Source of the DNA: Muribaculaceae bacterium
GTDB lineage: Bacteria > Bacteroidota > Bacteroidia > Bacteroidales > Muribaculaceae
Length of the DNA: 64,000 nt
Reading direction: 5' to 3'
Assembly: GCA_017427945.1 (NCBI GenBank)
Contig: JAFRRT010000026.1
Span: 80,902 to 144,901, forward strand
Below are positions 25,740 through 46,780 of this stretch, piece by piece. Numbering within the stretch: the stretch's first letter is position 1; each line of letters opens with the position of its first letter. A program made the position numbers and the translations under genes. The notes beneath the pieces are model-generated. The model had not been told where the DNA came from. It searched no databases and was given only the letters and a program-made list of their open reading frames with translations.

Positions 25740-27152
25740 ATGAAAACACCAACCACCAACGAACAGCACACCCGCGTGCTGCATGCCGCCTATCAGGCCT
25801 GGATGAACGCGGCAGGTTTGCGACAGGCCCGCCTGCGCAACAAGCGGTTCACCTATGGCGACCAATGGGGTGACCTGATTCGCAACAACGAGGGTCGCGT
25901 CGTCACCGAGCGGGAACACCTCGCCGCCCAGGGTTGCGAGAGCATCACCAACAACCTCATCCGCCAGATGGTGAAGACCATCGTGGGACGTTTCAGGAGT
26001 CAGTACATCAAGCATGACGAAGCCGAGGAAGCGACGACACTCAGCGAAGTCGGCCGCGCCAATGAACTCGATGAACTCGACAGTCGTGCCCTTGAGGAGT
26101 TTTTGATTTCGGGCTGCTGCATCCAGCGCGTGGATACCTGTCGCGAGCCCGGCGCCAGCGAGCACATCAGGGTCGATAACGTGAACGTGAACAAGTTCTT
26201 TGTCAATGCGCTGAACGACACCCGCTCGTGGGACTGCGAACTCGTGGGCGAGCTGCATGACCTGAACATCGCCCAGTTGCTGCGACGCGTGGCGGGCGGC
26301 AACCAGCGCAAGGCGGCATGGGTGAGGCGACTCTATACCGACGGCGCCGAGGAACGCCTGGCCGACTTCACTGCCCAATTGGGTGCCGACACGCAGCTGG
26401 GCAGCGACTTCTGGCACGCCCGCGACGGCAAGTGCCGCGCCATCGAGGTGTGGGCACTCGAGAGCCGCGAAGTGATGGTGTGCCACAACCGCCGTGAGGG
26501 CACACTCACCGTGGAACCCGCCCATGCATCCCACCGCATGAGGAATCGTGCCGATGTATCGGTCCGCTGGGACATCGCTACCGTGTGGCACTGCCGCTGG
26601 TTCAGCCCCATGGGCGACCTTCTGTGCGAGTATGATTCGCCCTGGCAACACGGGAGCCATCCCTTTGTCATCAAACTTTATCCGCTCACCGACGGCGAGG
26701 TGCATGCCGTTGTCGAGGACATCATCGACGCGCAGAAGCACGTCAACCGCATGATATCGCTGCTGGACCAGGTGATGCGCTCGAGCGCCAAGGGAGTGCT
26801 GCTCTTTCCCGAGACGGCTCTGCCCGACGGATGGACCTGGGAGGATGCACGCCGCTGCTGGTCAAGCGCTAACGGCCTGCTGCCCTACAACCCCAACTAC
26901 GGCGAGGCCAAACCCGAACAGATCAGCGCCAACAACACGGGGCTGGGAGCATACCAGATGATTGAACTGCAGATGAAACTGTTTGAGGAAATCAGCGGTG
27001 TGAGCGGTGCCCTACAGGGCAAGAACCCCACTGTAAACAGCGCTAACGTCTATCAGTTGCAGAGCGAGAACGCCAACATCGCTTTGAGCGACGTGTATGA
27101 CTCCTTCCAGGCCTTCCGCCGACAACGAGACCGGAAAATAGTTAATAGTTAA
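25740..27152 (+). CDS. Phage portal protein (P22-like type)
   Basis: A 470-residue protein read as a portal: the N-terminal R-L-R-N-K-R-F-T-Y-G-D-Q-W, the I-T-N-N-L-I-R-Q-M-V-K-T-I-V-G region, a central beta-rich wing, and the helical H-A-V-V-E-D-I-I-D-A-Q-K-H-V-N-R-M-I-S-L-L stretch are typical. Portals form the dodecameric DNA gate of a capsid. The gene ends inside an ATAGTTA repeat (stop 27150-27152), so its C-terminus may be clipped relative to longer P22-like portals. Codon use looks like neighbouring host genes. First gene of capsid block A; no integrase or terminase adjoins it. Confidence 0.72.
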   Translation: MKTPTTNEQHTRVLHAAYQAWMNAAGLRQARLRNKRFTYGDQWGDLIRNNEGRVVTEREHLAAQGCESITNNLIRQMVKTIVGRFRSQYIKHDEAEEATTLSEVGRANELDELDSRALEEFLISGCCIQRVDTCREPGASEHIRVDNVNVNKFFVNALNDTRSWDCELVGELHDLNIAQLLRRVAGGNQRKAAWVRRLYTDGAEERLADFTAQLGADTQLGSDFWHARDGKCRAIEVWALESREVMVCHNRREGTLTVEPAHASHRMRNRADVSVRWDIATVWHCRWFSPMGDLLCEYDSPWQHGSHPFVIKLYPLTDGEVHAVVEDIIDAQKHVNRMISLLDQVMRSSAKGVLLFPETALPDGWTWEDARRCWSSANGLLPYNPNYGEAKPEQISANNTGLGAYQMIELQMKLFEEISGVSGALQGKNPTVNSANVYQLQSENANIALSDVYDSFQAFRRQRDRKIVNS

Positions 27153-27172
27153 TAGAGAATAGTTAATAGTTT
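27138..27172 (+). repeat. Heptanucleotide repeat (5 units) at the portal 3' end
   Basis: Five consecutive 7-mers: ATAGTTA, ATAGTTA, ATAGAGA, ATAGTTA, ATAGTTT. The portal stop codon falls within the second unit. Same repeat type as at the end of SusD (20160-20187). Confidence 0.85.
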
Positions 27173-27199
27173 TAGTAACCGTTTTAAATTTTATATGCC

Positions 27200-27604
27200 A
27201 TGAATGAACAGCATGATTTAGAAAACGTGGCGAAAGACGAGGCCATGACGCCACCGCCTTTTCGCCTCAGTGAAGAACCACAAGAGGAGCAACAGCCGCA
27301 GCCGTGCGCCTCCCCCACCCTTGCCGAACAGATTGCGGCGCTGGCACTCGACGAGAGTACGTCACAGCGCCTGGCTACACTCACCTGCGGTATCGAGCCG
27401 CAGGCAGTAACACCCGACCTGCTCACCACCCTCGCTCGCGGCATCACCCACGACGAGGACGTGCAAAACGCCGATGCGGCGGGCTATCTGCGCGGTCGCA
27501 ACGAGCATATCGAGGCCGTATTGCATCCACAACCTCAAGACGAGGAGCAAGCCGAAAGCGCACCCGTCTTTCCCCGTTACTGCCGACGCAGCATTTGGGA
27601 TTAA
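27200..27604 (+). CDS. Hypothetical protein between portal and capsid, candidate scaffold
   Basis: A 134-residue acidic protein rich in Glu, Gln, Pro and Ala with no membrane segment. A helical core (A-E-Q-I-A-A-L-A-L-D) lies between low-complexity ends. No family is recognised. Position between portal and major capsid genes, acidity and predicted helicity are what one expects of a phage scaffolding protein, but that is inference from context only. Confidence 0.5.
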   Translation: MNEQHDLENVAKDEAMTPPPFRLSEEPQEEQQPQPCASPTLAEQIAALALDESTSQRLATLTCGIEPQAVTPDLLTTLARGITHDEDVQNADAAGYLRGRNEHIEAVLHPQPQDEEQAESAPVFPRYCRRSIWD

Positions 27605-27681
27605 TCAGTTAGCAGTTTCTCTTAACAACTACAGACAATACACTTATACACAAAAACACAAATCTTTAAAAACAACAAACC

Positions 27682-29088
27682 ATGAACATCATCATTTTAA
27701 CAAAGACTCTGCGCTGGATGCGCAACCACAAGAAGTTAGTCATCTTTGCCATCGTTATGATCCTTATTGCCATTCTCGCGTCCTGCATGGGCGGTGACCA
27801 TGGCGCCGCAAGCCTCGCCGTGGGTATGCTCATCGGTGGCGTCGAGGATGGTCAGCATGTCGTTGACGGCCCGCTCACCACCGACCTGACCCGCGAGGGC
27901 TCGCCCGACCTGTTGCTCAACGAGATTGACCAGCAAATCGTGAAAATCCGCCCCATGTCCACCCCCATCGACCAGATTTCGCGCTATGGCGGCAGCAAGC
28001 ATGCCGGTAGCATGACTGTCGATTTCTATAGTGTGGACACCAAGCCCACAAAAACGCGTCTGAACGGTGCCATCGAGGAATCGGACCCCAGTGAAGGTGA
28101 CGAAACGCCCGTCATCACCATCAACACCGACAACAATGACATCTTTGATGCCACCGACACGATTCTCGTGCAAAGTGTGTCGGGCTACGAGAAAGATGGC
28201 GTCACCGAGAGCGGACAGGACCTGATGCTCTACGTCTTGAACCGCGACACCAACGGCGTCACCGTCATGGCTGTGAACGGCCCCACGCTGAACGGTGTGC
28301 CCAACTGCTTCCCCGGCATCAACAACGGCGTTACCCTGGTGCGCATGGGACGTGCCGCCAGCGAACTCGACGTGCAGTCACCACAGTTCGAGGCCCTTCC
28401 CAAGAAGAGCCGCAACCTGTGTCAGATCTTTAAAATGCAGGTGGAGCAAAGCACATTGCAGCGCCTTGCCAACAAGGAAGTGGGCTGGACGATGAGCGAC
28501 CAGGAAGAGGCAGCCGTCTATGATATGCGCCTGGGCATGGAGAAGTCGTTCCTCTTCGGTACCGCCCGCCAGCTGTGGGACAATTTTAAGAAAGAATACG
28601 TCTATTTCACTGGCGGCATCTGGAGCCAGGCAGGCAAGGACTTCTACATTGAGTCATCGACGGGCCTGACGGCCGCCAGGATGGTGGACCTGATGCACGA
28701 TGCCTTCACCGGCAACGCCGGCAGCAAGCGCAAGATTCTGATTGGCGGCAGCGGCCTCATCAGCAGCATCAGCAAGCTCGACTATGACCGCGTCATCACC
28801 GCTGGTCAGCATGTAAGTAAATGGGGAATAGACTTCACTGAATTGAGGTCAAAATTCGGCTGCATCTACCTGATGCTCAGCGAGGTGTTTGACGAGGTTG
28901 GCATGACCGATGCCGGTATTGTCATCGACCCCGAGTATATCCAGAAGTACACCCACATCCCCTTCAGTACCGAGCAGCTCAACCTCAAGAAGAGCGGCGT
29001 GCGCAACGTTGACGCGCTGGTGATGACCGAGGCATCGTGCCTGGTGCTGCGCTACCCCAACGCTCACATGCGTGTCACCACCCGATGA
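27682..29088 (+). CDS. Candidate major capsid protein (HK97/SU10-like fold) with an N-terminal lipoprotein-like signal
   Basis: A 468-residue protein. From about residue 60 it resembles SU10-type major capsid proteins: T-P-I-D-Q-I-S-R-Y-G-G, L-C-Q-I-F-K-M-Q-V-E-Q-S-T, a D-M-R-L-G-M-E-K-S-F-L-F-G helix and I-V-I-D-P-E-Y-I-Q near the end. Unexpectedly the N-terminus has a basic stretch, a hydrophobic run (about residues 19-33) and a lipobox-like L-A-S-C at 32-35. The A-rich upstream context favours ATG at 27682, but internal ATGs at 27787 or 27826 would give a signal-free capsid. It overlaps the next gene by 4 bp. Assignment by eye; remote fold comparison would settle it. Confidence 0.6.
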   Translation: MNIIILTKTLRWMRNHKKLVIFAIVMILIAILASCMGGDHGAASLAVGMLIGGVEDGQHVVDGPLTTDLTREGSPDLLLNEIDQQIVKIRPMSTPIDQISRYGGSKHAGSMTVDFYSVDTKPTKTRLNGAIEESDPSEGDETPVITINTDNNDIFDATDTILVQSVSGYEKDGVTESGQDLMLYVLNRDTNGVTVMAVNGPTLNGVPNCFPGINNGVTLVRMGRAASELDVQSPQFEALPKKSRNLCQIFKMQVEQSTLQRLANKEVGWTMSDQEEAAVYDMRLGMEKSFLFGTARQLWDNFKKEYVYFTGGIWSQAGKDFYIESSTGLTAARMVDLMHDAFTGNAGSKRKILIGGSGLISSISKLDYDRVITAGQHVSKWGIDFTELRSKFGCIYLMLSEVFDEVGMTDAGIVIDPEYIQKYTHIPFSTEQLNLKKSGVRNVDALVMTEASCLVLRYPNAHMRVTTR

Positions 29089-29483
29089 AGTATTTCACCA
29101 TTCAGGAACTGACACGCTCGGTGACAGCACGTCGGCTGGGCATCGACAACACGCCGCCAGCCAGTGCCGTCAAAGCGCTGCATGAACTGGTAGATTGTGT
29201 GCTCGATCCCTTGCGCGAGGCTTGGGGCGGACCTATCAGGGTCAATAGCGGCTACCGCTGCCCCGAGCTGAACCAGGCAGTGGGAGGCACGCCGACGAGC
29301 CAGCACCAGAGCGGCGAGGCCGCCGACATCACTGTGGGCTCACGCTCCGGCAACCGTCGCCTGCTGTCGCTCATCAAGCAGCTTAATCTGCCCGTTGACC
29401 AGTGCATCGACGAGAAAGGCTGCCGCTGGATCCATGTGAGCCACCGCCGTGGCCGCAACCGCCGCCTCTACATGAAATTCTGA
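29085..29483 (+). CDS. Peptidase M15-type D-alanyl-D-alanine carboxypeptidase (phage-type endolysin family)
   Basis: A 132-residue single-domain protein of the M15_3 type: V-N-S-G-Y-R-C-P-E-L-N, then S-Q-H-Q-S-G-E-A-A-D-I with the zinc His and Asp, and the C-terminal W-I-H-V-S-H. It cleaves peptidoglycan stem peptides and is common as a phage lysis or tail-associated enzyme. It begins in the ATGA overlap with the capsid candidate, so translation is coupled. Last gene of block A. Confidence 0.85.
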   Translation: MKYFTIQELTRSVTARRLGIDNTPPASAVKALHELVDCVLDPLREAWGGPIRVNSGYRCPELNQAVGGTPTSQHQSGEAADITVGSRSGNRRLLSLIKQLNLPVDQCIDEKGCRWIHVSHRRGRNRRLYMKF

Positions 29484-29504
29484 CCTGGAACGGTTCAGAC
29501 TATC

Positions 29505-29585
29505 TTAACTACGGATTACACCGATTTAACGAATTGATTGACAAACAATTAATTCGCTCAAAAACGGGTGATTCGTAGTTTTTTG
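29505..29585 (+). terminator. Large nested hairpin with T-run between convergent operons
   Basis: AACTACG at 29505-29511 opens a roughly 16-bp imperfect stem closed at 29578. Inside it CGAATTGATTG and CAATTAATTCG form a second hairpin. A run of T follows in the plus direction. It separates capsid block A from the convergent transporter gene and resembles the hairpin at 63810-63873. Confidence 0.65.
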
Positions 29586-29586
29586 T

Positions 29587-31251
29587 TTACAGGAAGATGA
29601 GGAGGAGTACCTGGGCGATGATGACGCGCAGGAACATGCTCAGGGGATAGACGGCGGCATAGGCCACCGAGGGGCGGTCGCTGCCAAGCGTCTCGTTGGC
29701 GTAGTTCATGGCCATGGGATTTGCCATCGCGCCGCTAAGCATACCACTAACCGAGGCATAGTCGATATGCGCCATGCGCAGCGCTATCCAACCCACAATC
29801 AGCACAGGGATAATGGTGAGCAGGAAGCCCGTACCCACCCACAGCAGGCCCTCGGGACGAATGACGGTGGCAAAGAAGTCGGGGCCCGATGCCAGTCCCA
29901 GGCAAGCAAGATACAGGGCAAGGCCGATGGAGCGCAGCATCAGGTTGGCGCTCGACGTGGTATAGGCGTTGATGTGGATACGGGGGCCAAAGGCACCGAT
30001 GAGGATGCCGGCGATGATGGGGCCTCCTGCCAGTCCCAACTTCACGGGGGCGGTGATGCCCGGTAAGACGATGGGTATGGAACCCAAAATGAGACCAAAC
30101 GTCATACCCAGGAAAACGGTGATGAGGTTAGGTTCGTCGAGCATCTTGACGGCGTTGCCCACCTCTTTCTCTACATTTTTGATGGCCTCGCTGTGACCGA
30201 CGACGATGATGCGGTCGCCAATAAGCAGTCGCAAGTCGGGCGTGGCAAGCAACTGCAGGCCGCCACGGTTCACGCGGCTGATGTTCACGCCATAGTTGCG
30301 GCGCAAACGCAGGGAGCCCAGTTTGCGGCCGTTGATTTCGGGTTTAGTAATCAGGATGGCCTGCGAGACGAGGTCGCTGTCGATGGCGTTCCAGTCAATA
30401 TCATCCTTGTTCCAGTCGGTCGCCTCCTGCTTGCCGAAGAGGACTTCCATCGCCTCGGCAGCATCTTGGTCCCTCATGGTCACCAGCAGGCGGTCGTCGG
30501 CCATGAGGACCGTTCCGGCCTCAGGAATGGTCACCTTGCCGTCACGCCACAGGCGTGAGATGACGAACTGACGGGGGCTGATGCGTGCCAAGTCGCCTAC
30601 GGTCTTGCCGATGATGCCCTCGTTGCGCACGCGGTAAGCGGCAATGAACGTGTGGTCGGCTTCATCCTCGCTCTCGTCGATAAGGTGATCGCTGTGGCGC
30701 ACCAGCACCTTGCGGATGAGTGCCAATGCCAAGATGACACCCACCACACCCAAAGGATAGGTCACCGCACAACCCAATGCCGCGCCACTCTCGGGGCTAT
30801 GCAGCTGGGCCAACGTCTGCTGTGCCGCTGCCAGTGCAGGGGTGTTGGTCGTGGCACCACACATGATGCCCACCGCGTCACTCAGGTTAATGCCCAGTAA
30901 GGGCAACAACAGCGTGAGCACTGTTCCCACCAGTACCACACCTATCGCCAACATATTGAGCGTGAGGCCCGACTTGTGGAACGAGCTGAAGAAACCAGGT
31001 CCCACCTGCAAACCTAAAGCATAGACAAAGAGCACCAGACCGAAGTTCTGGGCATATTGCAACATGCGGGGCTCGATGGAGATGCCCAAATGTCCCGCGA
31101 GGATGCCGAGGAAGAAGACAAAAGCCACACCGAGCGAAACGCCCAGCACCTTAATCTTGCCAAGCGCCAAGCCGCAGGCACACAGCAGCGAAAGTATCAC
31201 CACCGCCTGCACCGCCGAGTGCGTCAAGAATATGTCAGTCAGCCACTGCAT
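29587..31251 (-). CDS. AspT/YidE-type transporter (aspartate:alanine exchanger family)
   Basis: A 554-residue membrane protein with the duplicated YidE/AspT layout: N-terminal helices (about 10-175) with G-V-A-F-V-F-F-L-G-I, two cytoplasmic TrkA-C (RCK_C) domains (about 195-365), then a second helical half. Each half carries an A-x-x-x-P-A/M-type signature (C-G-A-T-T-N-T-P-A-L and S-G-A-M-A-N-P-M-A-M). Family members are anion or amino-acid antiporters; the substrate here is unknown, although the upstream glycerate kinase hints at a carboxylate. It follows the kinase by 20 bp. Confidence 0.85.
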   Translation of the reverse strand: MQWLTDIFLTHSAVQAVVILSLLCACGLALGKIKVLGVSLGVAFVFFLGILAGHLGISIEPRMLQYAQNFGLVLFVYALGLQVGPGFFSSFHKSGLTLNMLAIGVVLVGTVLTLLLPLLGINLSDAVGIMCGATTNTPALAAAQQTLAQLHSPESGAALGCAVTYPLGVVGVILALALIRKVLVRHSDHLIDESEDEADHTFIAAYRVRNEGIIGKTVGDLARISPRQFVISRLWRDGKVTIPEAGTVLMADDRLLVTMRDQDAAEAMEVLFGKQEATDWNKDDIDWNAIDSDLVSQAILITKPEINGRKLGSLRLRRNYGVNISRVNRGGLQLLATPDLRLLIGDRIIVVGHSEAIKNVEKEVGNAVKMLDEPNLITVFLGMTFGLILGSIPIVLPGITAPVKLGLAGGPIIAGILIGAFGPRIHINAYTTSSANLMLRSIGLALYLACLGLASGPDFFATVIRPEGLLWVGTGFLLTIIPVLIVGWIALRMAHIDYASVSGMLSGAMANPMAMNYANETLGSDRPSVAYAAVYPLSMFLRVIIAQVLLLIFL

Positions 31252-31271
31252 TAAGTCAATGAAATATCATA

Positions 31272-32387
31272 TTAAGATTGAAATTGCGTCACAATGTCGC
31301 GAACTGCCGCAGCCACACGACAGCGCGTGCCGTCGGGGGCCATCGCCTCGGCTTCCGCCAGCCCTTCGCTGACAGCGACTGCCGCGCAAAAGCCCGCTTC
31401 ACGCGGGTCAAAGCCTTGCGCTATCTTGCCGCAGACGGCAGCCACGGGAACACCCCGCTCCTGAGCCATCTTAGCAACACAGCCAGGTCCCTTACCCATC
31501 ATGGTCTGGCGGTCCAGTTGACCCTCGCCCGTGATGACGAGGTCGGCACCCATAAGTGCCTCGTTCAGGCCGTTGCGGGCGAGTACATAGGGTGCGCCCT
31601 CCAGCAGTTCACAGTTCAGCAGATGCAGCATCAACGAGGGGATACCGCCCGCCGCGCCACAACCGGGTGTGGTGGCAATTTCCTCGCCGACGATGTCGGC
31701 CACGCGGCACATGCCGCGCTCCAGTTGCCTTACCTGCTCAGGGTCAGCCCCTTTTTGAGGTCCGAAAATCTTTGCAGTCCCCAATTCGCCGCACAGCGGG
31801 TTATCGACATCGGCCAAAAGGGTGAAACGGCTTTCAAGCACCTCATGCGGTATGCCGCCGGTCCCGATATGGTCAAGTTCCTGCAGATTACCACCGCAAG
31901 GAAAGAGCATTCGCCCCTCGGCATTGAAAAACTCCGCGCCCAGGGCACTCATGATACCCATCGCCGCGTCGCAGGTTGCCGAGCCACCCAAGCCTAGCAC
32001 GATGTGACGACTGCCACGCTCCATGGCGTCGCGCATCATCAGTCCCGTGCCAAACGTGTTCAGGCGAAAGATGTCACGCATCTCGTCGGGCACCCGCGAC
32101 ATGCCGCTGGCGGCAGCCACCTCAATCAGGGCTGTGCCATCGTCACACAGGAAATAAGATGCCTCAACGGGCGGCAGGGTGATTAACGGAGCTATTGTGG
32201 GGACGGTCACCCGCACGCCCTTTAGGGTAGATGCGAGCACCTCGGTTGTGCCGTCGCCACCGTCGGCGACAGGCACACAAGTCACATTGAGCCCATCGCA
32301 GTCATGGAGTGCCAGATGGGCCGACTCGTTCAAGTCGCTTGCTGTCGCTGATCCTTTGAACTTATCAAACGCCAGGACAACCTTCAT
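31272..32387 (-). CDS. Glycerate kinase (GlxK/GarK family)
   Basis: A 371-residue protein with the family's opening V-V-L-A-F-D-K-F-K-G-S-A-T-A, P-V-A-D-G-G-D-G-T-T, G-L-G-G-S-A-T-C-D-A-A-M-G and D-L-V-I-T-G-E-G-Q-L-D-R-Q-T motifs. It phosphorylates D-glycerate to feed lower glycolysis. Its ATG overlaps the stop of the upstream lipoprotein gene by one base (TGATG), so the two are translationally coupled. Confidence 0.92.
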   Translation of the reverse strand: MKVVLAFDKFKGSATASDLNESAHLALHDCDGLNVTCVPVADGGDGTTEVLASTLKGVRVTVPTIAPLITLPPVEASYFLCDDGTALIEVAAASGMSRVPDEMRDIFRLNTFGTGLMMRDAMERGSRHIVLGLGGSATCDAAMGIMSALGAEFFNAEGRMLFPCGGNLQELDHIGTGGIPHEVLESRFTLLADVDNPLCGELGTAKIFGPQKGADPEQVRQLERGMCRVADIVGEEIATTPGCGAAGGIPSLMLHLLNCELLEGAPYVLARNGLNEALMGADLVITGEGQLDRQTMMGKGPGCVAKMAQERGVPVAAVCGKIAQGFDPREAGFCAAVAVSEGLAEAEAMAPDGTRCRVAAAVRDIVTQFQS

Positions 32388-33274
32388 CAGTCAACCTTGA
32401 CAACAAGGAAATTGGATTTCTCCCAGAAGCGGTCAGCATTCAGGATGTGCAACGTCTTGACATTGCCATGGTCCACCAACTCGTAGGAGTCCTTGGGGTG
32501 GTTGGTCAAGAGCTGTGCCTTATTGCTGTGAAGGGGAATCTCGCTCAAGGTGCGGCGGTCGGCCTTGGTGAAATAGGACATCTCAAAGTCGCCCTCGAGG
32601 ATTCGTGTCTTGCGCAGGAAACCGCTCTCAATGATTTTGTTGGCCTTGAGTTCCTTCTTCGAGCCAACAACATAATAGCAGGTGTTGAGGTTGTTCACCT
32701 CGGCGGTCAAGTTCTTGGACTGCTCCTGAGCAGCCTCTTTCTCCTTGATGACAGCCTTGTTGACGGTGTTCAACGAGTCAACGCTCTGATTCAGATTTTT
32801 AATCTGGATGTGCGCAGCCGCCAATTGCTCGGTCAGGCCGTTAATGGTGGTCTGCTGGTCTTCGAGCTGACGCTTGAGGCTGGCGATGGTCTTTTCCATC
32901 TTACCGTTGTAGTTGGTGGACTGTTTCAGTCGTTTCTCCAACTCCTCGAGACGAGCTTTGTGCTTGTTGATGGACTGCTGGATGAGCACGATGTCATCGC
33001 GCAGCTGTTTCTTGCGGTCGGGCGTCTCGCTACTCAGATTGTTGACCGAGACGATGTCTTCCAGTTCCTTGATCTGCGTCATACCCTCGCTGATGTCGTT
33101 CATCAGATCCATGAGGCTGTCACGTTCAGCATTGGCAGTATTGATGGAGTCTTGCAAGGCGGCGTTGATGGAATCCTGACGCATCGCCTCCTGCTCCAGT
33201 TGATTGGCGCGCTTGCAAGCGGGCAGCAATGCCAGGCCAATCATCAACCACACTAAATAAAAAATCTTTTTCAT
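32387..33274 (-). CDS. Coiled-coil lipoprotein, Bacteroidales hypothetical
   Basis: A 295-residue protein with lipobox L-P-A-C near residue 20, a long coiled coil (about 25-195, heptads rich in Leu, Ile, Gln and Lys) and a C-terminal globular domain of about 90 residues starting C-Y-Y-V-V-G-S-K-K-E-L and ending with paired beta-strands. Proteins of this shape are widespread in Bacteroidales with no assigned function; a periplasmic envelope role is plausible. It lies 45 bp after rsmI and is coupled to the kinase. Confidence 0.75.
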   Translation of the reverse strand: MKKIFYLVWLMIGLALLPACKRANQLEQEAMRQDSINAALQDSINTANAERDSLMDLMNDISEGMTQIKELEDIVSVNNLSSETPDRKKQLRDDIVLIQQSINKHKARLEELEKRLKQSTNYNGKMEKTIASLKRQLEDQQTTINGLTEQLAAAHIQIKNLNQSVDSLNTVNKAVIKEKEAAQEQSKNLTAEVNNLNTCYYVVGSKKELKANKIIESGFLRKTRILEGDFEMSYFTKADRRTLSEIPLHSNKAQLLTNHPKDSYELVDHGNVKTLHILNADRFWEKSNFLVVKVD

Positions 33275-33319
33275 ATCCGTCTGTTTTGTTATAGTCTTGT
33301 TCTATAAGTGCTTAAAATA

Positions 33320-34066: not shown

Positions 34067-34081
34067 GAGACGAGCAAAAAA

Positions 34082-38133: not shown

Positions 38134-38163
38134 TACAGCAAGCAGAAAACTTGAATTGTGGCG

Positions 38164-38172: not shown

Positions 38173-38345
38173 GAGTATTTTTTTCGAAACTGAAAACATT
38201 TCTTTCGAAATTTCCAGCCCCCCCCCATTTTCGGTAGTACCCTGCGCATCAATCTCTTCAATGAATGGCCTTCGCCAGGAAAAAAACAAAAAAATCACTC
38301 ACGATAACGCCATATCGATTAAAATGACTAATTTTGCAGGTTATT

Positions 38346-38885: not shown

Positions 38886-38939
38886 TGACAATTCAAGTGG
38901 ATTTTTAAAACGATATCATCATTTTATAAGTGGCAGGAT

Positions 38940-39998
38940 ATGGACATTTCAGTAGTAGTACCGTTGTATAACGAGGCAGAGTCACTGCCGGAACTTGCCG
39001 AATGGATTGAGCGTGTCATGAACGAGAACGGTTTCTCTTACGAGGTGCTGTTCATTAACGACGGCAGCACCGACGACTCTTGGGACGTCATCAAGGAACT
39101 GCATGCCAAGAACCCCCGGATGAAGGGCATCGCCTTCCGCCGCAACTACGGCAAGTCACCGGCGCTGAACACCGGCTTTGAGCGGGCTCAGGGCGATGTC
39201 ATCATCACGATGGACGCCGACCTGCAGGACAGCCCCGATGAGATTCCCGAACTCTACCACATGATTACCCGTGACGGGTATGACCTGGTGAGCGGATGGA
39301 AGAAGAAACGCTATGACCCGCTCAGCAAGACCATCCCCACCAAGCTCTTCAACGCTACTGCCCGCCGCGTTACCGGCATCCACAACCTGCACGACTTCAA
39401 CTGCGGCCTGAAAGCCTACCGCCGCGATGTCGTCAAGCACATCGAGGTGTATGGCGACATGCACCGCTATGTGCCCTATCTTGCCAAGATTGCGGGTTTC
39501 ACTAAAATCGGAGAGAAAGAAGTGAAGCACCGCGCGCGCAAGTACGGCTCGACCAAGTTCGGCCTTGACCGCTTTGTCAACGGCTATCTCGACCTGCTCA
39601 CGCTGTGGTTCCAGGGCAGGTTCGGCGTCAAGCCGATGCACTTCTTCGGCCTGCTGGGCAGCTTCATGTTCCTGTTAGGTTTCGCCGCTGTAATTCTTGT
39701 CGGTGCCCTCAAGTTGTATAACATGTATAGCGGCAACAGTTACAGGCTGGTGACCGATTCACCCTACTTTTACCTTGCCTTGACCTCGATGTTGCTGGGT
39801 ACTCAACTTTTCCTCACAGGATTCCTGGGAGAGCTCATCATTCGCCACAGCAACGATCGCAACCACTACGAGATCAGCGAGGAAATCATCGATGAAGGTC
39901 GGCCTGCCATCGCCGCCCGCCAGCAGGTGGACGTGCTCGATACGCTGCCCAAGCAACAGCCTGTGAAACAGGAAGTTCACATCGAGAAGGAGCTATGA
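38940..39998 (+). CDS. GT2 polyprenyl-phosphate glycosyltransferase (GtrB/ArnC-like)
   Basis: A 352-residue enzyme: GT-A domain with V-V-P-L-Y-N-E-A-E-S-L, I-N-D-G-S-T-D-D-S, M-D-A-D-L-Q-D-S-P and D-F-N-C-G-L-K-A-Y-R-R, then two C-terminal membrane helices (about 225-255 and 270-300) and a cytoplasmic tail. It should transfer a sugar to undecaprenyl phosphate at the inner membrane for later glycan modification. The gene overlaps the next by 4 bp. Confidence 0.9.
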   Translation: MDISVVVPLYNEAESLPELAEWIERVMNENGFSYEVLFINDGSTDDSWDVIKELHAKNPRMKGIAFRRNYGKSPALNTGFERAQGDVIITMDADLQDSPDEIPELYHMITRDGYDLVSGWKKKRYDPLSKTIPTKLFNATARRVTGIHNLHDFNCGLKAYRRDVVKHIEVYGDMHRYVPYLAKIAGFTKIGEKEVKHRARKYGSTKFGLDRFVNGYLDLLTLWFQGRFGVKPMHFFGLLGSFMFLLGFAAVILVGALKLYNMYSGNSYRLVTDSPYFYLALTSMLLGTQLFLTGFLGELIIRHSNDRNHYEISEEIIDEGRPAIAARQQVDVLDTLPKQQPVKQEVHIEKEL

Positions 39999-40492
39999 GC
40001 CGCCTATTGCACATAGCCACGTTGATGTTGCTCGCCCTGTGCCTCTTTACGGCGGCGTGCAGCGACGAGAGTTGCTATGAGAACGGCAGCAGCCTGCCCC
40101 TTGCCACACTCTATCTGGGAGAAGCCCAACAGACCATCACTGGGCTTACCGTCATGGGCATCGGGGCTCCCGGCGACAGCCTGTTGCTCAACAATGGCGC
40201 CGTCAAGGAGCTTTACCTGCCGCTGCGTGCCAGTGTTCAATCCACATCGTTCATGTTCGGCAGATGGCTCATCAACGGCACCGATACAGTGATGGTGAGA
40301 GATACTGTTACTCTTGACTATCAGCCCGTTGAATACTTCCACTCGGCAGAGTGCGGCGCGATGTTCAACTTCAACATGAAGAACGTGCGCCACACGACAC
40401 ACGGCATCGATTCGGTTGTGCTGATGACCGACGTGGTCACCAACTCGCAGCTGCCCGCATTACGCATCCATTTCACCGATTTCGCACTATGA
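39995..40492 (+). CDS. DUF6452-type lipoprotein
   Basis: A 165-residue protein with lipobox T-A-A-C near residue 22, then a compact beta-rich domain (C-Y-E-N-G, L-P-L-R, D-T-V-T-L-D-Y, C-G-A-M-F-N-F). It matches the small Bacteroidetes lipoprotein family paired with DUF6048 outer membrane proteins. Function unknown. ATGA overlaps on both sides put it in a tight operon with the GT2 and DUF6048 genes. Confidence 0.72.
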   Translation: MSRLLHIATLMLLALCLFTAACSDESCYENGSSLPLATLYLGEAQQTITGLTVMGIGAPGDSLLLNNGAVKELYLPLRASVQSTSFMFGRWLINGTDTVMVRDTVTLDYQPVEYFHSAECGAMFNFNMKNVRHTTHGIDSVVLMTDVVTNSQLPALRIHFTDFAL

Positions 40493-41361
40493 AGACGACC
40501 GCACATACAAGAAATCACATCAAAGGGACGCTTCTTTTGATGACATTCATCTTGTCGGCCGTTTTCACCATCGGCGCCCAGGAGCCTGACCGCCGCCATG
40601 TCACCCCCGTCAAGCCCGAGACCAATGAGGTGAAACCGCCGCCCAAGGGCACCGACGACAAAATCATCCAGCAATACATCAGCGGCGACAGCGCTGCCGC
40701 CGTTGCCGAGGCTCGCAAAGACTCGCTTCGACGCGTGTATAAACGCTACCCCAGATTGACCGACATCGCCTACGGCATCAACTTCATCGAGCCGCTTTTC
40801 ATGGCCTTCGGGCAGTCCTATGCCAGCGCCGACGTGAATGCCACCCTCAACATGTGGAATAGGTTCCAACCTACTGTTGAGCTGGGTATGGGATGGGCAA
40901 AATCCACCCCCGACGGCATGAACTTCACCTATCGCGGCAAGCCCTCCCCCTACGTCAAGGTAGGCGCCAACTACAACTTCATGTTTAAGAACAGCCCCGA
41001 CTACCAGGCACTGATTGGTATCAGACTGGGATACAGCACCTTTGGCTACGACATCAAAGACGTTAATTACAGCAACAGTTACTGGCAGGAGAGCATCGGG
41101 TACGACATCACCGGAGAGCGTTCCCACGCCCTGTGGGGAGAGGCGGGCGTTGGCCTCAAGGTCAAGATCAGCGGCCCCTGGTCACTGGGGTGGATGATTC
41201 GTTACCACGGCATCTTCAACTATGGCAAGAGCGACCATTCCAAGCCGTGGTTCATCCCCGGCTACGGTCCCCGCGAGAGTTCCTTAGGACTCTCCTTGAC
41301 GCTGCAATACACATTGCCGCTCTATCACGAGAATACCCCATCACCACAACCCAAAGAATAA
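40489..41361 (+). CDS. DUF6048-type outer membrane beta-barrel protein
   Basis: A 290-residue protein with signal peptide (T-F-I-L-S-A-V-F-T-I-G-A-Q), a polar N-terminal segment, then alternating strands (Y-V-K-V-G-A-N-Y-N-F, I-G-I-R-L-G-Y, A-G-V-G-L-K-V-K-I) ending in L-G-L-S-L-T-L-Q-Y-T-L-P-L-Y. This fits a small outer membrane barrel. The ATG at 40489 overlaps the DUF6452 stop and is followed by a signal peptide, which rules out the longer frame from 40351. Confidence 0.75.
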   Translation: MKTTAHTRNHIKGTLLLMTFILSAVFTIGAQEPDRRHVTPVKPETNEVKPPPKGTDDKIIQQYISGDSAAAVAEARKDSLRRVYKRYPRLTDIAYGINFIEPLFMAFGQSYASADVNATLNMWNRFQPTVELGMGWAKSTPDGMNFTYRGKPSPYVKVGANYNFMFKNSPDYQALIGIRLGYSTFGYDIKDVNYSNSYWQESIGYDITGERSHALWGEAGVGLKVKISGPWSLGWMIRYHGIFNYGKSDHSKPWFIPGYGPRESSLGLSLTLQYTLPLYHENTPSPQPKE

Positions 41362-41371
41362 CACTACAGCC

Positions 41372-41509
41372 ATGATGATTAAAAAGCAACAACGACACTT
41401 CGGCCAGCAGGCACGCATCCCAAAAATCAGGCCTGCGGGCAACCCCGACTGGTACAAACGCTTTAGGCAGCTTGCCAGACTCTCGGGCAACATCTTCAGA
41501 ATGAAATGA
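41372..41509 (+). CDS. Small basic ORF, 45 residues
   Basis: A short open frame starting ATG-ATG 10 bp after the DUF6048 stop. The product is strongly basic (many Lys, Arg, Gln) with an aromatic N-P-D-W-Y-K-R-F core and no hydrophobic segment. Position at the end of a tight operon suggests it is translated, but no family is recognised and it could be chance. Confidence 0.4.
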   Translation: MMIKKQQRHFGQQARIPKIRPAGNPDWYKRFRQLARLSGNIFRMK

Positions 41510-41815
41510 GATGAGTCCCAATGCGAGACACATGCAGCACACCTAAATCGGCGCCAAATGCTACTTGTTAATAGTTTTTTTGCCGATTTTTCAAAAAAAT
41601 TTTGCCAGTTCAAAAAAAGTTCGTAATATTGTAGTCTGAAAAGCGGGAAAAACCGCTCGTTTTGAGCCTATTTCTTTGATTTTCAACATAATAATATCAT
41701 AGTACCTCCTTTCGGCATACTATGCCCGGACGGAGAGAAGCGGATTTAAACAAAGAACAAAAAAAACAAAACATATTAAATTAACATTATTACTAACTAT
41801 TTAACTCATTAAACT
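41510..41815 (+). other. 306-bp gene-free region: promoter and structured leader
   Basis: Contains the promoter at 41601-41631 and a leader of about 180 nt. Two hairpins are visible in the leader: AGCGG/CCGCT (about 41641-41656), and a nested one near 41707-41737 with GGCATA-C-TATGCC inside a CTCC/GGAG stem. The end before the ATG is A-rich. Confidence 0.65.
41601..41631 (+). promoter_or_regulatory. Promoter of the secreted-protein gene
   Basis: TTTG at 41601-41604 and TAATATTG at 41624-41631, spacer 19 bp. The -7 box departs from TAnnTTTG at one position. Confidence 0.65.
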
Positions 41816-42787
41816 ATGAAGATTAAAAATTTACTTCTTTTCGCTGCCGCTGCATCGCTGAGCCTTAGCGCTTTCGCTGACGAGCTCTCGACTGGCGAGC
41901 TTGCTGTCCTGTCAACCGGCGAACCCGCTACCTCTGGTCAGCCCACCAACGACCACTTCTTCGTACGTGGTGACTATGATGACATGGGTTCGATGATGAC
42001 CTTCGACAACCAGGTTAGCTTCAAGGCTGGTGACACCCAGTTGGTATGGTTCTACCTTGATGATGATGAGATCTATCTGAACGAGGCTGTTCAGGCTCTC
42101 ACCCCCATCGCTTACAATGCCGCTGGTGACCTCTACAACGAAATTACTTACAACTCATTCCAGTTCGACCTTTACCTCCCGCAGAGGTTGCAGGTCATCG
42201 TCGGTGAAGACGAGGATGGTGAGGAGATTACCTTCGAGCAGGGTGACCGTCTTCCCTCAAACGCTACCCTGACTTGGGGTTTGAAGGAAGAGACCAAGGT
42301 TATCGATGGTATCACCTACAACATCTATACCGTAGTAAGCTACAACTCGAACGCTTATGGCAGCCACCTGTCAGCTAAGAACGCCAGCAAGTACAAAAAC
42401 AACGGCGCTCTGAAGAAAGACTACAGCGTATTTGCACTGCAGATCAAGGACACCCAGGCCGACGGTGAGAACCACATCGACGACATGATCATCGCTAACC
42501 AGATGCTCAACCTGCGTGAGACCGCTATCGCTGAGTGGGATCCCAACAGCAGCACCTTCTTCTATGGCACCGGTGGTAACCTGGAGACCCAGCGCTTCCA
42601 GAACTACAACCGTGTTAAGATGCACGGCAGCGCCAATGTTGTTGAGAATCTGGCCGAGAAGACCATCAACAACGTGAAGTACTACAACATTGCCGGTATG
42701 GAGAGCAATGTTCCCTTCGACGGTGTTAACATCATGGTAACCACCTACAACGATGGTACTACCAGCACCTGCAAGGTGATGAAGTAA
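41816..42787 (+). CDS. Secreted protein with type IX-like C-terminal sorting domain
   Basis: A 323-residue protein with a clear signal peptide (L-L-L-F-A-A-A-A-S-L-S-L-S-A-F-A). The mature part is beta-rich and acidic. The last 40 residues (Y-Y-N-I-A-G-M, F-D-G-V-N-I-M-V-T-T-Y, C-K-V-M-K) resemble C-terminal domains that direct export by the type IX system or surface attachment in Bacteroidetes. No enzymatic domain is recognised. Codon choice (GGT, CGT, AAC, GCT) is strongly biased, a sign of high expression, and the gene has a long leader and strong terminator. Confidence 0.7.
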   Translation: MKIKNLLLFAAAASLSLSAFADELSTGELAVLSTGEPATSGQPTNDHFFVRGDYDDMGSMMTFDNQVSFKAGDTQLVWFYLDDDEIYLNEAVQALTPIAYNAAGDLYNEITYNSFQFDLYLPQRLQVIVGEDEDGEEITFEQGDRLPSNATLTWGLKEETKVIDGITYNIYTVVSYNSNAYGSHLSAKNASKYKNNGALKKDYSVFALQIKDTQADGENHIDDMIIANQMLNLRETAIAEWDPNSSTFFYGTGGNLETQRFQNYNRVKMHGSANVVENLAEKTINNVKYYNIAGMESNVPFDGVNIMVTTYNDGTTSTCKVMK

Positions 42788-42811
42788 GAAATTACTGAAC
42801 ATCAAAATACA

Positions 42812-42846
42812 AATAACCGCGGGCTTAACGCTCGCGGTTATTTTTT
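42812..42846 (+). terminator. Rho-independent terminator
   Basis: AATAACCGCG (42812-42821) pairs with CGCGGTTATT (42833-42842), followed by more T residues, 24 bp after the stop. Confidence 0.9.
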
Positions 42847-42897
42847 GTGTAAAGCCGTGGCAGAGCCACGGCACGGAGTGGAGAGATAAGGAAGCGG

Positions 42898-44775
42898 CTA
42901 CAGTTTCTCGCCGAGCCACACATCGCTGGCCAGTGACTTGTCGGGAGGGGTTTCCTTAGGCACCACACGCTTGTCCTTCATCACCAGCAAGCCGATGGCG
43001 CGCGTCATCAGGATGTCGTCGTGCTTGCCGGGACGGGCAGCATAGCGTCCGTTGTACTCCTGATAGTCACGCATCTCGTTCACCGCATCCATGTCACGCT
43101 CGACATAGGCACCTTCCCTCACCGCCTCGATCAAAGCGGTGACGGCTTCACGCTTGGTTTTGACATTGGTGTGGAAACCCAACTTCTTGCCGTCGCGCTT
43201 ATAGACATTTCCATAGCATCGCGACACCTGCTGCATGATGTACTCGCTCTCACCGGCACGCGCCGCCTCGTTAGTCAGTGTGTTGCTCTCGATGACGAGG
43301 GCAGCGTTGTTGTAAAGGATGGCCAGCTGCATCGACTTCCAGCCCAACTGGTCATGGTCGATATGGCCGCGCCACTGTGCCACGATGGCCGGCGGGTGCC
43401 CTTGTGCGGCAAAACGCCACACGGCAATGACCGAATAGTCACTGCCCTCGGACCTGCCGCCGACATCAACCACCACTGCATATTTCGCCAACCGGGGGCC
43501 GCGACTCTCGGGCATCTCCCAGACGCGCAACAAGCCGTTGGAAGCCCGCACCAGCCTGACATTCCGCTTGGCCTCATGCCCGCTGGCGCCGTCGGCCTGG
43601 ATGTCGCCCACCAGGACGGGAGGCTTGTCACAGCTTTTCTCCATGGCGTCCAGGTGCTCACTGGCAAAGGGACAATGAGTCGTTGTGGCAAAAGCCTCGT
43701 TGGCGGTGCCGGGATACTCGGCCATCATCAGTTCGTGGGTGCGGTATTCTTTGCGCTTGCTGTGGTACCAGTTTACCTGTTCCAGGGTGCAGCCCGTCTG
43801 CCACAGCATCTGCTCATACTCATCCATCGACTCCCACAATGCCCACGCATCATCGACAGGTAGCGAGTAGATGCCTATCTCATGCCACGGCACAAAGACG
43901 GGAACCTTGTAGCTGCGGTCGAGCTGGGCACGTTGCCACTCATCATGGAAATAGTCCCCCACCCCGTTGGCGGTCGATTCCAGAACGATGACAGTCTCGG
44001 GCTTGAGCGCCACGCTGCCACAGACGCTACGCACCACATCGTCGGGGCTGTGCATCGGTGTCTCGGGCCAATATGCCACCTCGCTGAGGTGCGCCATTGC
44101 GATATCATAGCCTCGCGCAGCATCCTCGCTGCGAGAACTGCCCGTCAGCACCAGGCAGTCGCGGGAAGTAATCTGCTGTACGTTGGGCTGTCCCTCCAGT
44201 TTGGCAAAGCGCGGCACATCGTCCTTGTCATCAAGCAGCTCGCGGGGATAGTGTCGCAACAGCAGGTTATACATCCGCTTGATGCTCTTGCTCGTCGCAT
44301 GCAGGTGGCCGCAAATCAGGCTGTTCCACCCCGTGTGGCGCACGAGCTGCATCCATGCCAAATACATCTGTACCAACGTCGATCCACCCCACTGACGCGC
44401 CTTGAGCAAGATAACTCGCACAGGAAGTCCCGCCGTACGCTGCTCCTCCATGACTGCGAGCAGGCGGCGCTGCGGTCGGTTGAGGACAAACTTCACGTTC
44501 TTGCCGCTCATCTTGTCCTTGATGGTCACGCAACGGGCACACCAGAATTCAAAGTCCTCCCGTATGCGGGCCTTGTCCTGCTCGACCGGCGTCAACATGG
44601 CGTAGTGGGGGCATTGCTCCAGCACCACACGGGGAATGTGGCGGCCGCCCACCTCAACACGGTCTCCCCAACAGCCGACGCCCGCCAGCGGGTCATAGCC
44701 TCTATCGTCAAGCAGCGCCAAGCGCCGCTTGTTTTCGACGAGGAGTTCATCCACATTATTATATATATGGTTCAT
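42898..44775 (-). CDS. Phage terminase large subunit (TerL)
   Basis: A 625-residue packaging motor. ATPase part: Walker A-like K-A-R-Q-W-G-G-S-T at 125-133, Walker B-like I-A-M-A-H-L-S-E at 225-232 with the catalytic Glu, and a coupling motif V-L-E-S-T-A-N-G near 265-272. RNase H-like nuclease: V-V-V-D-V-G-G with Asp 437, V-I-E-S-N with Glu 497, and K-H-D-D near 584-587. Both activities therefore look intact. TerL translocates DNA into a procapsid through the portal and cuts it. It starts 10 bp after the upstream propeller-like gene. No small terminase is seen next to it and the portal is 16 kb away on the other strand. Confidence 0.88.
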   Translation of the reverse strand: MNHIYNNVDELLVENKRRLALLDDRGYDPLAGVGCWGDRVEVGGRHIPRVVLEQCPHYAMLTPVEQDKARIREDFEFWCARCVTIKDKMSGKNVKFVLNRPQRRLLAVMEEQRTAGLPVRVILLKARQWGGSTLVQMYLAWMQLVRHTGWNSLICGHLHATSKSIKRMYNLLLRHYPRELLDDKDDVPRFAKLEGQPNVQQITSRDCLVLTGSSRSEDAARGYDIAMAHLSEVAYWPETPMHSPDDVVRSVCGSVALKPETVIVLESTANGVGDYFHDEWQRAQLDRSYKVPVFVPWHEIGIYSLPVDDAWALWESMDEYEQMLWQTGCTLEQVNWYHSKRKEYRTHELMMAEYPGTANEAFATTTHCPFASEHLDAMEKSCDKPPVLVGDIQADGASGHEAKRNVRLVRASNGLLRVWEMPESRGPRLAKYAVVVDVGGRSEGSDYSVIAVWRFAAQGHPPAIVAQWRGHIDHDQLGWKSMQLAILYNNAALVIESNTLTNEAARAGESEYIMQQVSRCYGNVYKRDGKKLGFHTNVKTKREAVTALIEAVREGAYVERDMDAVNEMRDYQEYNGRYAARPGKHDDILMTRAIGLLVMKDKRVVPKETPPDKSLASDVWLGEKL

Positions 44776-44785
44776 GAGGGCAAAT

Positions 44786-46780
44786 TCAAGGGTGATACAG
44801 GAGGGTTGGCAAGAAAAGGGTACCTGTAGAGGCAGTTCCTGTGGCCGACAGGCAGACTGTGCGGGCGCGGGCAGCGACCATGGGTGTTGCCAACGGCTGA
44901 TCCACAGCGCCTGTCACCGTCACCACACTCATTTCGCCGTCCTGGGCCATGATACCGCGCTGACCTGTTACCTTGAGCGTCAAGTCCACGTCTTCACTCC
45001 TCACATGCCACGCCACACGATGCAGCGCCTTGCCCAACAAGGGATGCAACTCAATGGGATGGCTGAGCCACGACACCGGTTGCACTAAAGCGTTTTCCTG
45101 CTCTAAATCCAACACCACGCCAGCATCGGTCACAGCAAGGGCGTGGCGCGGGTCACTATAAAACTGGCTTGCAGCCACCGAGCGTTCACTGGTTCTTCCG
45201 CTGGCCATCATCACCACGGGATGGCCCGTCGAGGGCAACATCCACAACTCCCGATAGGCGTTGCACCATGCCATAGCGGTGCAGTCCACATGGCGCAGGC
45301 ACACCTCCAGGCGCGACCCGTTCAAGCGACATAGGTGTCCATGACGAGACAGCAGCCAGACGTCGCCGTCGGCCTCGACAGGAGCCACAGCGGCGGCAAT
45401 GACTGTACGGTCCACCAGGCGCGCCTCACCCAACATTCCAGCTGCACTCTGCGGGATGGCATAGATGCCGTCGTCGCTGAACACATACACCGGATAACGG
45501 CCGAAGCCGCTCGAGTAGAGCGGGCGCGTCACCACAGCCATCGCCAGCGGCACAGCCCCGACGACGCGCCTTCGGCAAGCCTCGATGAGGGCGTTTCCCA
45601 CACCACTCATCACGATGTCGCCGCTGCCTGTGCAGCAATACAAACGGCCGCCTGCCATTGTCGAGCACACCACATTGCTCACAGCGAGCGGTGTCGTCAA
45701 GGCGGCACACTGCGATGAAGTCAAGGTCAATGATGTGATAGGCGGCACGAAATCCTCACCGCTCATCAACGAAGAGGCAGGCGCTGTTGCAATCAGGTGC
45801 CACGGCGAGGCAGCCAACTGAGCAGAGATAGCCTCGGCTCCGCGGCGCGACAAACCCATCTCCAGCACATACTCGCGACCGCCTGTCGTGCACGTCAGGC
45901 AACGGTAGTCCAGCGAGCGGCTGGCATTGAGCAACTGCGCCTCGTCGGTCGCCAGCACATCGACGCCCGCCACCAACGGCAGCCATTCGGCAGGGATGGA
46001 ACGAGTCACACCAATGTTTAGGCTGTAGTGAATCAGCGGCATGACCGTTGCCTCGGTCCCCGTGAAGGAGTTGCTCGAGACTGTCACATCGGCCTCAATG
46101 CGGTCGGCATTGGCCAGCGTCGCATCTCCCACGCGCACCGGGTCACTCACCCACAGGTAGGTACCGTCCCACATCCTTACTGCCCATCGCACCAGCATGG
46201 GAGCGGTGTGTCGGCCCTGGGCACGCGCGTCATTGTTCAAGGCACGATAAGCCGTATTCAGCATCCCTGCAAGGGCACTGGTGTCGGCGTCGGCAAGCGG
46301 AGCACGCCACACGTTGTAAGGTTCGTCAAAGGTATAAGCGCTGATGTCGGCTGTCATGGTGGCGGTCGAAACGGTAAACGTCAGTTGCGGGACGGCATCG
46401 GCGGGATCAAGCACTATCCACACGCCATCCTGACAGGAGAGCCAGGTCAAACCATCACGGCAGACGATGACGAGCAGGTCACCGACGGTATGTGCCCCGA
46501 CAATCTCACTGGCTACAGTCACCACCGTCTGGCCATCAACCTTGACCACACCGCCACTGCATGTCACCATCCTGCCGCCACTCACGGTCAACAGGCGGTC
46601 GCCGGCCGCAATCGCACCAACCGTCACCGGCGCGCCAGTCACCTGCAACGCTTCTTCACACTCTCGCACGTTCAACGCCTGCTTGGCATCACCGCACTGT
46701 GCCGCCTCACCATTGGCAAGCGGCATCACTGCCCGGGCGACCACCCGGGTCTCTCTCATTTGTGTTTTGTTCTTTTTCAT
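44786..46780 (-). CDS. Large beta-propeller-like protein upstream of terminase, candidate DNA-stabilisation/head-completion protein
   Basis: A 664-residue protein, strongly beta and rich in Val, Ala, Thr and Gly, without signal peptide or membrane segment. Short repeated strand pairs (V-G-D-L-L-V-I-V-C-R-D-G, G-R-L-Y-C-C-T-G-S-G-D-I-V, G-D-V-W-L-L-S-R-H-G-H-L-C-R-L) suggest propeller blades. Propeller proteins of this size serve as head-completion hubs in P22-like phages (gp10), and co-transcription with TerL supports that, but I could not confirm homology. First gene of capsid block B. Confidence 0.55.
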   Translation of the reverse strand: MKKNKTQMRETRVVARAVMPLANGEAAQCGDAKQALNVRECEEALQVTGAPVTVGAIAAGDRLLTVSGGRMVTCSGGVVKVDGQTVVTVASEIVGAHTVGDLLVIVCRDGLTWLSCQDGVWIVLDPADAVPQLTFTVSTATMTADISAYTFDEPYNVWRAPLADADTSALAGMLNTAYRALNNDARAQGRHTAPMLVRWAVRMWDGTYLWVSDPVRVGDATLANADRIEADVTVSSNSFTGTEATVMPLIHYSLNIGVTRSIPAEWLPLVAGVDVLATDEAQLLNASRSLDYRCLTCTTGGREYVLEMGLSRRGAEAISAQLAASPWHLIATAPASSLMSGEDFVPPITSLTLTSSQCAALTTPLAVSNVVCSTMAGGRLYCCTGSGDIVMSGVGNALIEACRRRVVGAVPLAMAVVTRPLYSSGFGRYPVYVFSDDGIYAIPQSAAGMLGEARLVDRTVIAAAVAPVEADGDVWLLSRHGHLCRLNGSRLEVCLRHVDCTAMAWCNAYRELWMLPSTGHPVVMMASGRTSERSVAASQFYSDPRHALAVTDAGVVLDLEQENALVQPVSWLSHPIELHPLLGKALHRVAWHVRSEDVDLTLKVTGQRGIMAQDGEMSVVTVTGAVDQPLATPMVAARARTVCLSATGTASTGTLFLPTLLYHP

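Follow-up and report, generated by a model that had tools for sequence, protein, structure and literature searches.

A 64,000-nucleotide stretch of a Muribaculaceae bacterium genome (assembly GCA_017427945.1, contig JAFRRT010000026.1, positions 80,902 to 144,901 of the forward strand; hereafter the window, numbered from its first letter) carries two blocks of phage-type genes, one encoding portal, scaffold, capsid and peptidase (25740-29483, plus strand) and the other the large terminase (TerL) and a tail-hub-like protein (42898-46780, minus strand). They belong to a phage head and packaging gene set that has been domesticated, is inherited largely vertically, is under selection, and lies dispersed on the chromosomes of Muribaculaceae and six other families. 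The original prediction from the window read the blocks as a gene-transfer-agent-like or domesticated phage system; distribution, dispersal and selection support this reading, the particle itself being what we infer. Because the genes are kept intact in most relatives examined, they may build a particle packaging bacterial DNA rather than a virus, and we place the probability of an independently domesticated, podovirus-type, dispersed gene-transfer-agent-like system at roughly 0.65.

Open reading frames (ORFs) of both blocks were confirmed in place and are intact. The portal (25740-27152, plus) is of the P22 type (Pfam P22_portal, E 3e-17; PHROG portal, E 9e-42) and, by alignment and a survey of C-terminal lengths, lacks the approximately 135-residue C-terminal part of phage portals. 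Downstream are a candidate scaffold protein (27200-27604, plus), the major capsid protein (MCP; SU10_MCP, 27682-29088, plus; Pfam E 9e-49), and an M15 peptidase that is a candidate endolysin (29085-29483, plus; Pfam E 5e-20). The peptidase start, first predicted at 29037, was corrected to 29085, where it overlaps the capsid stop (ATGA), an overlap present in 33 of 35 MCP matches of the window's closest relatives (clade I, 33 named loci, MCP identity approximately 78-84%); in three loci of the next group (clade II, 47 named loci, 58-69%) the M15 gene is instead upstream of the portal (L103, L257, L262). The scaffold is a homologue of phage gp48, which occupies the same site beside the MCP; alone, its match to the phage counterpart is weak (PHROG E 0.067; tblastn E 6e-4), and its family profile matches 68 of 82 viral or phage contigs, beside the capsid among the maps listed. 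TerL (42898-44775, minus; PHROG terminase, E 3e-22; T4 gp17 in the PDB) keeps ATPase and nuclease residues, as predicted: KARQWGGST, EVA and the nuclease aspartates, motifs to which we presumptively assign these roles, are invariant in 18 of 18 aligned sequences. The 664-residue product of 44786-46780 (minus), originally described as propeller-like, is a homologue of gp34 of Bacteroides phage BKO1-TP3 (phrog_32516) and a putative tail-hub or nozzle protein.

Bacteroides phages BKO1-TP3 (PQ571269), BS-TP4 (PQ571277) and BF1-TP2 (PQ571263), with relatives in IMG/VR, resemble the system in having a homologous capsid (37-41% identity), TerL (38-40%) and portal (36%), as well as a homologous scaffold, adaptor, candidate small terminase and tail-hub protein. 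These phages differ in having everything in one phage genome (adaptor to portal within 9.3 kb in BKO1-TP3) and a full-length portal, along with genes for RecT, an exonuclease and a helicase. Searching the phage collection gave three matches to the MCP and 175 to TerL, the same three being best, at the identities above; the 80 retained of at least 547 IMG/VR TerL loci reach at most 43% identity, and MCP patterns gave two contigs. Most mapped phage contigs have adaptor-MCP-scaffold facing small terminase-TerL, then portal, in approximately 9-10 kb, and a few are wider. As in gene transfer agents, the head, portal and packaging genes are phage-derived. In the MCP tree the chromosomal copies separate from most of the phages sampled as one group of 21 sequences (support 0.979) with two intruders, L123 and L125. 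Three IMG/VR entries, L124, L125 and L126, look like host fragments filed as virus since all have the short portal (with the gene order of host genus g46 in L125 and L126; the L124 capsid is 77% identical), and are probably chromosomal. L123 (IMGVR_UViG_2681813420_000001) has a compact, phage-like gene order and a capsid that is 53% identical and groups with the chromosomal capsids, while its TerL groups elsewhere; it is possibly a near phage relative.

The source genome (2.77 Mb, 39 contigs) was called Sodaliphilus-like from its relatives' labels and MCP identity: Candidatus Sodaliphilus aphodohippi and limicaballi have MCPs 64-65% identical to that of the window, and the best 80 of 190 relatives from a capsid-alignment scan of named genomes are mostly metagenome-assembled genomes from rumen or other herbivore guts, labelled Muribaculaceae, Prevotellaceae, Porphyromonadaceae or Bacteroidales. 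Confinement to this one strain is contradicted at every level. Within the genus, MCP and TerL are each found in 35 of 37 genomes (MCP missing from G020 and G033, TerL from G023 and G031), and among 24 genomes outside it in that set only G055 and G057 gave matches. Across the family, MCP is found in 262 of 297 genomes (241 strong matches and 21 weak, at E > 1e-20, 18 of them in genus g54 and 3 in g28) and TerL in 274, each in 29 of 30 genera; for genomes with completeness of 90% or more and contamination of 5% or less, the counts are 184 and 193 of 204, respectively. In the order, TerL was found in 31 of 344 genomes. Six families other than f1 (which the labels above suggest is Muribaculaceae) account for 22 of these, with E values of about 1e-200 or below (f22 5, f28 4, f58 3, f65 4, f84 2, f103 4), f1 itself for 5, and weaker matches in f20, f23, f68 and f71 for the other 4; these figures count positive genomes and not prevalence within a family. 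MCP was present in 16 and portal in all 17 of the 17 TerL-positive order genomes searched, and in 13 genomes of the six other families E values were < 1e-184 (MCP) and < 1e-176 (portal). Inactivating mutations are few: 140 of 150 MCP rows among the matches listed have no in-frame stop, and at least two TerL rows have one. Three genomes carry a second TerL at 40-42% identity besides the normal copy (G033:C15 97894-99669, G035:C10 12861-14654, G024:C13 63293-65074), and no other head gene was matched in 19-kb stretches around those of G033 and G035.

The genes lie apart in many of these assemblies. In the window, the 13.4 kb between the blocks holds, as predicted, chromosomal genes, namely an Asp-Al exchanger, glycerate kinase, a TP-methylase (rsmI-type), GT2 and DUF6452/DUF6048 proteins, with a coiled-coil lipoprotein-like protein and a 1015-residue sensor/regulator-like protein. 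A third locus, on contig C15 of the same genome (approximately 24.98-25.97 kb), encodes a small-terminase candidate and a phage-tail-type protein (FAM6), so that the set does not form the single contiguous block of a prophage. Beside the MCP of clade-I loci are portal (32), scaffold (32) and M15 peptidase (29), with chromosomal neighbors conserved in part; clade-II loci carry MCP, frequently accompanied by scaffold, and a portal lies inside the retrieved stretch in only three (L103, L113, L122), many of these contigs being short. In the closed 3.34 Mb genome G228, eight genes are spread over five sites as far as 956 kb from one another: position 936.9 kb carries TerL, 1358 kb the M15-portal pair, 1540 kb the adaptor, 1818 kb the small-terminase candidate with FAM6, and 1894 kb the scaffold-MCP pair. 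Distances of 12 to 430 kb separate capsid, TerL and portal in each of five genomes from other families (G401, G345, G542, G570, G624), the genes between including alaS, a MurF-Alr fusion and a P-type ATPase in G401, and relA/spoT and a 7TM-HD protein in G570; genome G443 has a dispersed set together with a compact prophage-like block (C32). Genus g46 can hold one cluster, as in G081, where tail hub, TerL, scaffold, MCP, adaptor, portal, small-terminase candidate and FAM6 fit in 10.5 kb. The whole set could not be packaged together with loci as far apart as in G228, a result that covers the dispersed genomes rather than the compact g46 clusters. The window gave no match to an integrase, recombinase or phage replication family, in line with the prediction (PHROGs on 39 of 51 non-overlapping ORFs and Pfam alone on nine more, three short ORFs falling outside both); as in a gene transfer agent, the blocks have no integration or replication genes of their own, a result covering window ORFs and not the third locus.

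Inheritance was assessed by correlating pairwise distances in 25 genomes, giving 0.947 for TerL-rpoB, 0.811 for MCP-TerL and 0.778 for MCP-rpoB, with 0 of 5000 permutations as high. Keeping one clade-I genome (n=14), TerL-rpoB is 0.818 (0/5000) and MCP-TerL 0.401 (9/5000), and MCP-TerL within clade I is 0.49 (11 of 2000 permutations). Vertical inheritance is borne out closely for TerL and less so for MCP; the set has been transmitted with its hosts and has diversified along with them, the MCP signal weakening with one clade-I genome and both signals vanishing within clade I. Purifying selection is likewise upheld by median NG86 omega (dN/dS) values of 0.11-0.22 for seven genes: MCP 0.186 (686 pairs), portal 0.137 (497), scaffold 0.181 (15), M15 0.216 (414), TerL 0.157 (7), tail hub 0.113 (3) and FAM6 0.113 (2), pairs that are not independent; the small-terminase candidate had no usable pair. 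The predicted host-like codon use holds for third-position G+C content, which in six genes is within approximately one standard deviation of 37 host genes, but not for overall G+C content, which is up to two standard deviations higher.

The dispersed units share promoter-like sequences. TGTAATTTTGC, an 11-base promoter-like element of the Bacteroidota -7 type, has exactly two copies in the window, one preceding the portal unit (25676-25686, plus) and the other the tail-hub/TerL unit (46840-46850, minus), 53 nt from the portal ATG and 59 nt from the start of the second block, respectively, and is present again before the third locus. Upstream regions of 32 clade-I sequences align in a conserved block TTGACA..TAATTTTGC, and GTAATTTTGC occurs 43 times in 38 clade-I sequences, 31 of them at most 300 nt upstream of system genes, a zone of approximately 2.7% of positions. 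The general -7 element, TAnnTTTG, precedes unit-leading genes (portal in 32/33 of clade I and scaffold in 42/44 of clade II; in other genera scaffold in 15/16, small-terminase candidate in 12/14 and tail hub in 11/15) and seldom other genes (MCP 0/35, 5/48 and 1/18; adaptor 1/16; FAM6 0/13; TerL 6/18). Because the loci are related, the TAnnTTTG and GTAATTTTGC counts are not independent. A combined -33/-7 pattern (fixed spacing, one mismatch) found two sites, neither at system units.

The shortened portal distinguishes Muribaculaceae from phages. Viral and phage portals that reach the core end have 117-154 further residues in 66 of 68 cases (exceptions, L125 and L126), and 60 of 62 entries in the non-phage set have 2-26 (exceptions, the prophage-like G055 and G057, which is of another family, dispersed and full length; some loci were entered twice, and one entry, L124, is an IMG/VR contig). 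All sampled Muribaculaceae portals are without the approximately 135 C-terminal residues, unlike the full-length portal of a prophage. The absent part aligns with residues beyond approximately 480 of portal 8jov, which we take, by analogy with P22, to be the crown/barrel inside the head. Since G057 is dispersed yet full length, and portal frames in 13 genomes of the six other families are 622-724 residues, loss of the C-terminal part apparently took place on the line leading to Muribaculaceae, separately from dispersal.

Parts missing from the window were predicted to lie elsewhere in the genome, and this proved partly right: the small-terminase candidate and tail-type protein were found on C15, but a complete set finds no support so far in clade I, where the adaptor was not found. 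The candidate head-tail adaptor (family 4) matches phage gp45 (E 1.5e-18) and is between MCP and portal where the genes are clustered. Family 5 matches phage gp49 (E 9e-10), which adjoins TerL in phages, and is a candidate small terminase by this position only; family 6 (FAM6) aligns loosely with phage gp35-37, and its profile matches four viral or phage contigs. On the lysis side of the gene set the M15 peptidase is the sole candidate. No credible match came from PDB profile searches with the candidates for tail hub, adaptor and small terminase. None of 8997 frames from clade-I loci, searched with filters off, matched the adaptor; a weak match in L279 was rejected as an out-of-frame reading of a receptor-like frame, and those in L281 and L282 as one conserved family with a short, chance-level match.

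Several observations weigh against a working gene-transfer-agent-like system. Two profiles run over genomes found the adaptor in none of seven clade-I genomes and, at E <= 0.001, in none of ten, nor in clade-II genomes G012 and G016 or three g45 genomes; since it is undetected there, function may have been lost in the window's sub-clade. No tail fiber, holin or activator/regulator was identified, no profile search having been aimed at them, and the G228 tail-hub gene was not found within approximately 9 kb of TerL, the extent of the search. The MCP is broken into two pieces in two of the 37 genus genomes (G007, G015). With one clade-I genome kept, MCP-rpoB is only r 0.345 (188/5000), and within clade I, where rpoB is 96% identical, its distances are uncorrelated with those of MCP (r 0.04) and of TerL (r 0.10); the clade-I correlations come from a first rpoB set in which the G229 frame was wrong. 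The chromosomal group in the TerL tree (31 sequences) has a support of only 0.686 and three intruders, namely L125 plus the second TerL of G033 and that of G035, and some TerL counts may be prophage copies, because genomes with weak MCP matches have TerL matches too. Finally, particles, packaged host DNA and transfer are predictions from the genes.

Under the gene-transfer-agent-like reading, a podovirus-type phage of the BKO1-TP3/BS-TP4 lineage would have been domesticated in an ancestor of several Bacteroidales families, keeping scaffold, capsid, portal, head-tail adaptor, tail-hub protein, terminase and endolysin-like peptidase and losing integration, replication and immunity. Found mostly in single copy, the genes would now pass on with the chromosome as a number of short transcription units. 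Co-expression of the units in some cells would allow a short-tailed head to assemble, into which TerL and the small-terminase candidate would package chromosomal fragments, the genes being too far apart for joint packaging; the M15 enzyme might help lysis, and the particle could deliver DNA to kin, like a gene transfer agent. A fuller version, of an ancient podovirus-origin lineage that became fixed in an ancestor shared by seven or more Bacteroidales families, Muribaculaceae included, scattered as promoter-bearing units, deprived of the portal C-terminus in Muribaculaceae (possibly altering the sensing of filling) and serving routine gene exchange in animal guts, has in our judgment an even chance of being right.

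A DNA-filled particle that kills competitors without gene transfer would need the same gene anatomy, and no receptor-binding or uptake gene was identified here; PBSX of Bacillus subtilis is described, in passages of PMC7667829, as packaging 13 kb host fragments without transfer. We consider such a particle rather unlikely, as no fast-changing tail-tip/immunity pair was noticed and median omega is 0.11-0.22 for every one of the seven genes that gave usable pairs. Killing usually requires such a pair. It is also unlikely that the genes are kept singly for anti-phage interference, with host capsid, shortened portal or terminase poisoning the assembly of related incoming phages. Related phages do infect Bacteroides, prophage-like blocks occur in G443 and G055, the portal is short throughout the sampled Muribaculaceae, the units are separable and clade I has no detected adaptor; yet no TerL catalytic position varies among the 18 sequences, the genes occur jointly as a set in most of the family, and in some genomes (g46, g28) a single stretch of 10-15 kb holds them. 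An old prophage in decay, its remnants retained by chance, would account for the broken MCPs and for genes undetected in some genomes, but is highly improbable and was rejected, being contradicted by low omega, the scarcity of stops, presence in 29 of 30 genera and TerL-rpoB congruence. An ordinary prophage split by misassembly or recent inversion, conceivable in that ordinary relatives with one compact block exist, has next to no chance and was rejected because the genes are also apart in closed genome G228, across many assemblies and within individual long contigs (G228, G570, G542), with chromosomal genes between them in the window and two other genomes.

A domesticated, dispersed gene-transfer-agent-like system has parallels among known agents. 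RcGTA is siphovirus-like and has a main cluster; the present system has a podovirus-type ancestor and, in the Sodaliphilus-like genus, no main cluster. RcGTA and its relatives (Rhodogtaviriformidae) are alphaproteobacterial, and share vertical inheritance and several loci with the present genes (from parts of PMC9662315). BhGTA (VSH-1) of Brachyspira, confined to one genus and of different phage origin, is similar in having a single terL outside the structural cluster, a likely dispersed "genome" and co-diversification with its host (same source). FpGTA of Faecalibacterium (Ruminococcaceae) is likewise from the gut and likely podovirus-like, has TerS, TerL, portal, scaffold and capsid at two loci approximately 125 kb apart in one strain, and forms particles with approximately 9 kb of DNA (from parts of PMC12946183); the present genes are more dispersed and span several Bacteroidales families. 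RcGTA is experimentally proven, as are the particles and transfer of BhGTA, in contrast to the gene-level evidence here.

Gene transfer agents with established genetics are few (three independently exapted groups in passages of the classification paper, PMC9662315, and Faecalibacterium added in 2026, PMC12946183), and a lineage common to several Bacteroidales families would be an independent, unusually dispersed case. No description of a dispersed system in Bacteroidales or Muribaculaceae was found in the open-access literature to August 2026, as judged by titles and the starts of abstracts, and the main text of a piglet metaproteome paper names Sodaliphilus without the words phage or capsid. 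The hosts are common in mouse, pig and ruminant guts, and Muribaculaceae are a dominant gut family. Parts of a gut study report gene transfer agent activity in Ruminococcaceae/Oscillospiraceae and lateral transduction in Bacteroides (PMC12946183), and mouse-gut particles gave 46 contigs with generalized-transduction or gene-transfer-agent coverage patterns (parts of PMC7667829); the system would be a candidate source of these patterns, and perhaps of part of the quarter that is unexplained there. The gene-by-gene survival of a phage across the chromosome can be tracked over families, and because phage genes survive singly in this way, prophage finders that seek clusters may miss such systems.

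The MCP begins with a strongly hydrophobic, membrane-like segment (27682-27800), often with a lipobox-like ASC and lacking in some genera. It is found in 93 of 104 alignable matches of the chromosomal set, a lipobox-like motif being present in 63 (certain loci enter more than once, and 10 further matches without the anchor motif were left out), and among viral copies that could be aligned in 43 of 47; assembly of heads in association with a membrane might explain it. A partial second copy, comprising a capsid end and M15 peptidase, is approximately 3 kb downstream of the block in L045 (14964-15691). Adjoining TerL, 41816-42787 encodes a 323-residue protein conserved in clade I, which was left out of the system given its signal-peptide-like start and the absence of a Pfam or PHROG family match. 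PHROG "tail" matches in the ORF at 20-1921 coincide with Ig-like (Big_2) domains, and tandem dockerin-type-I proteins are encoded at 46966-48294 and 48523-49923.

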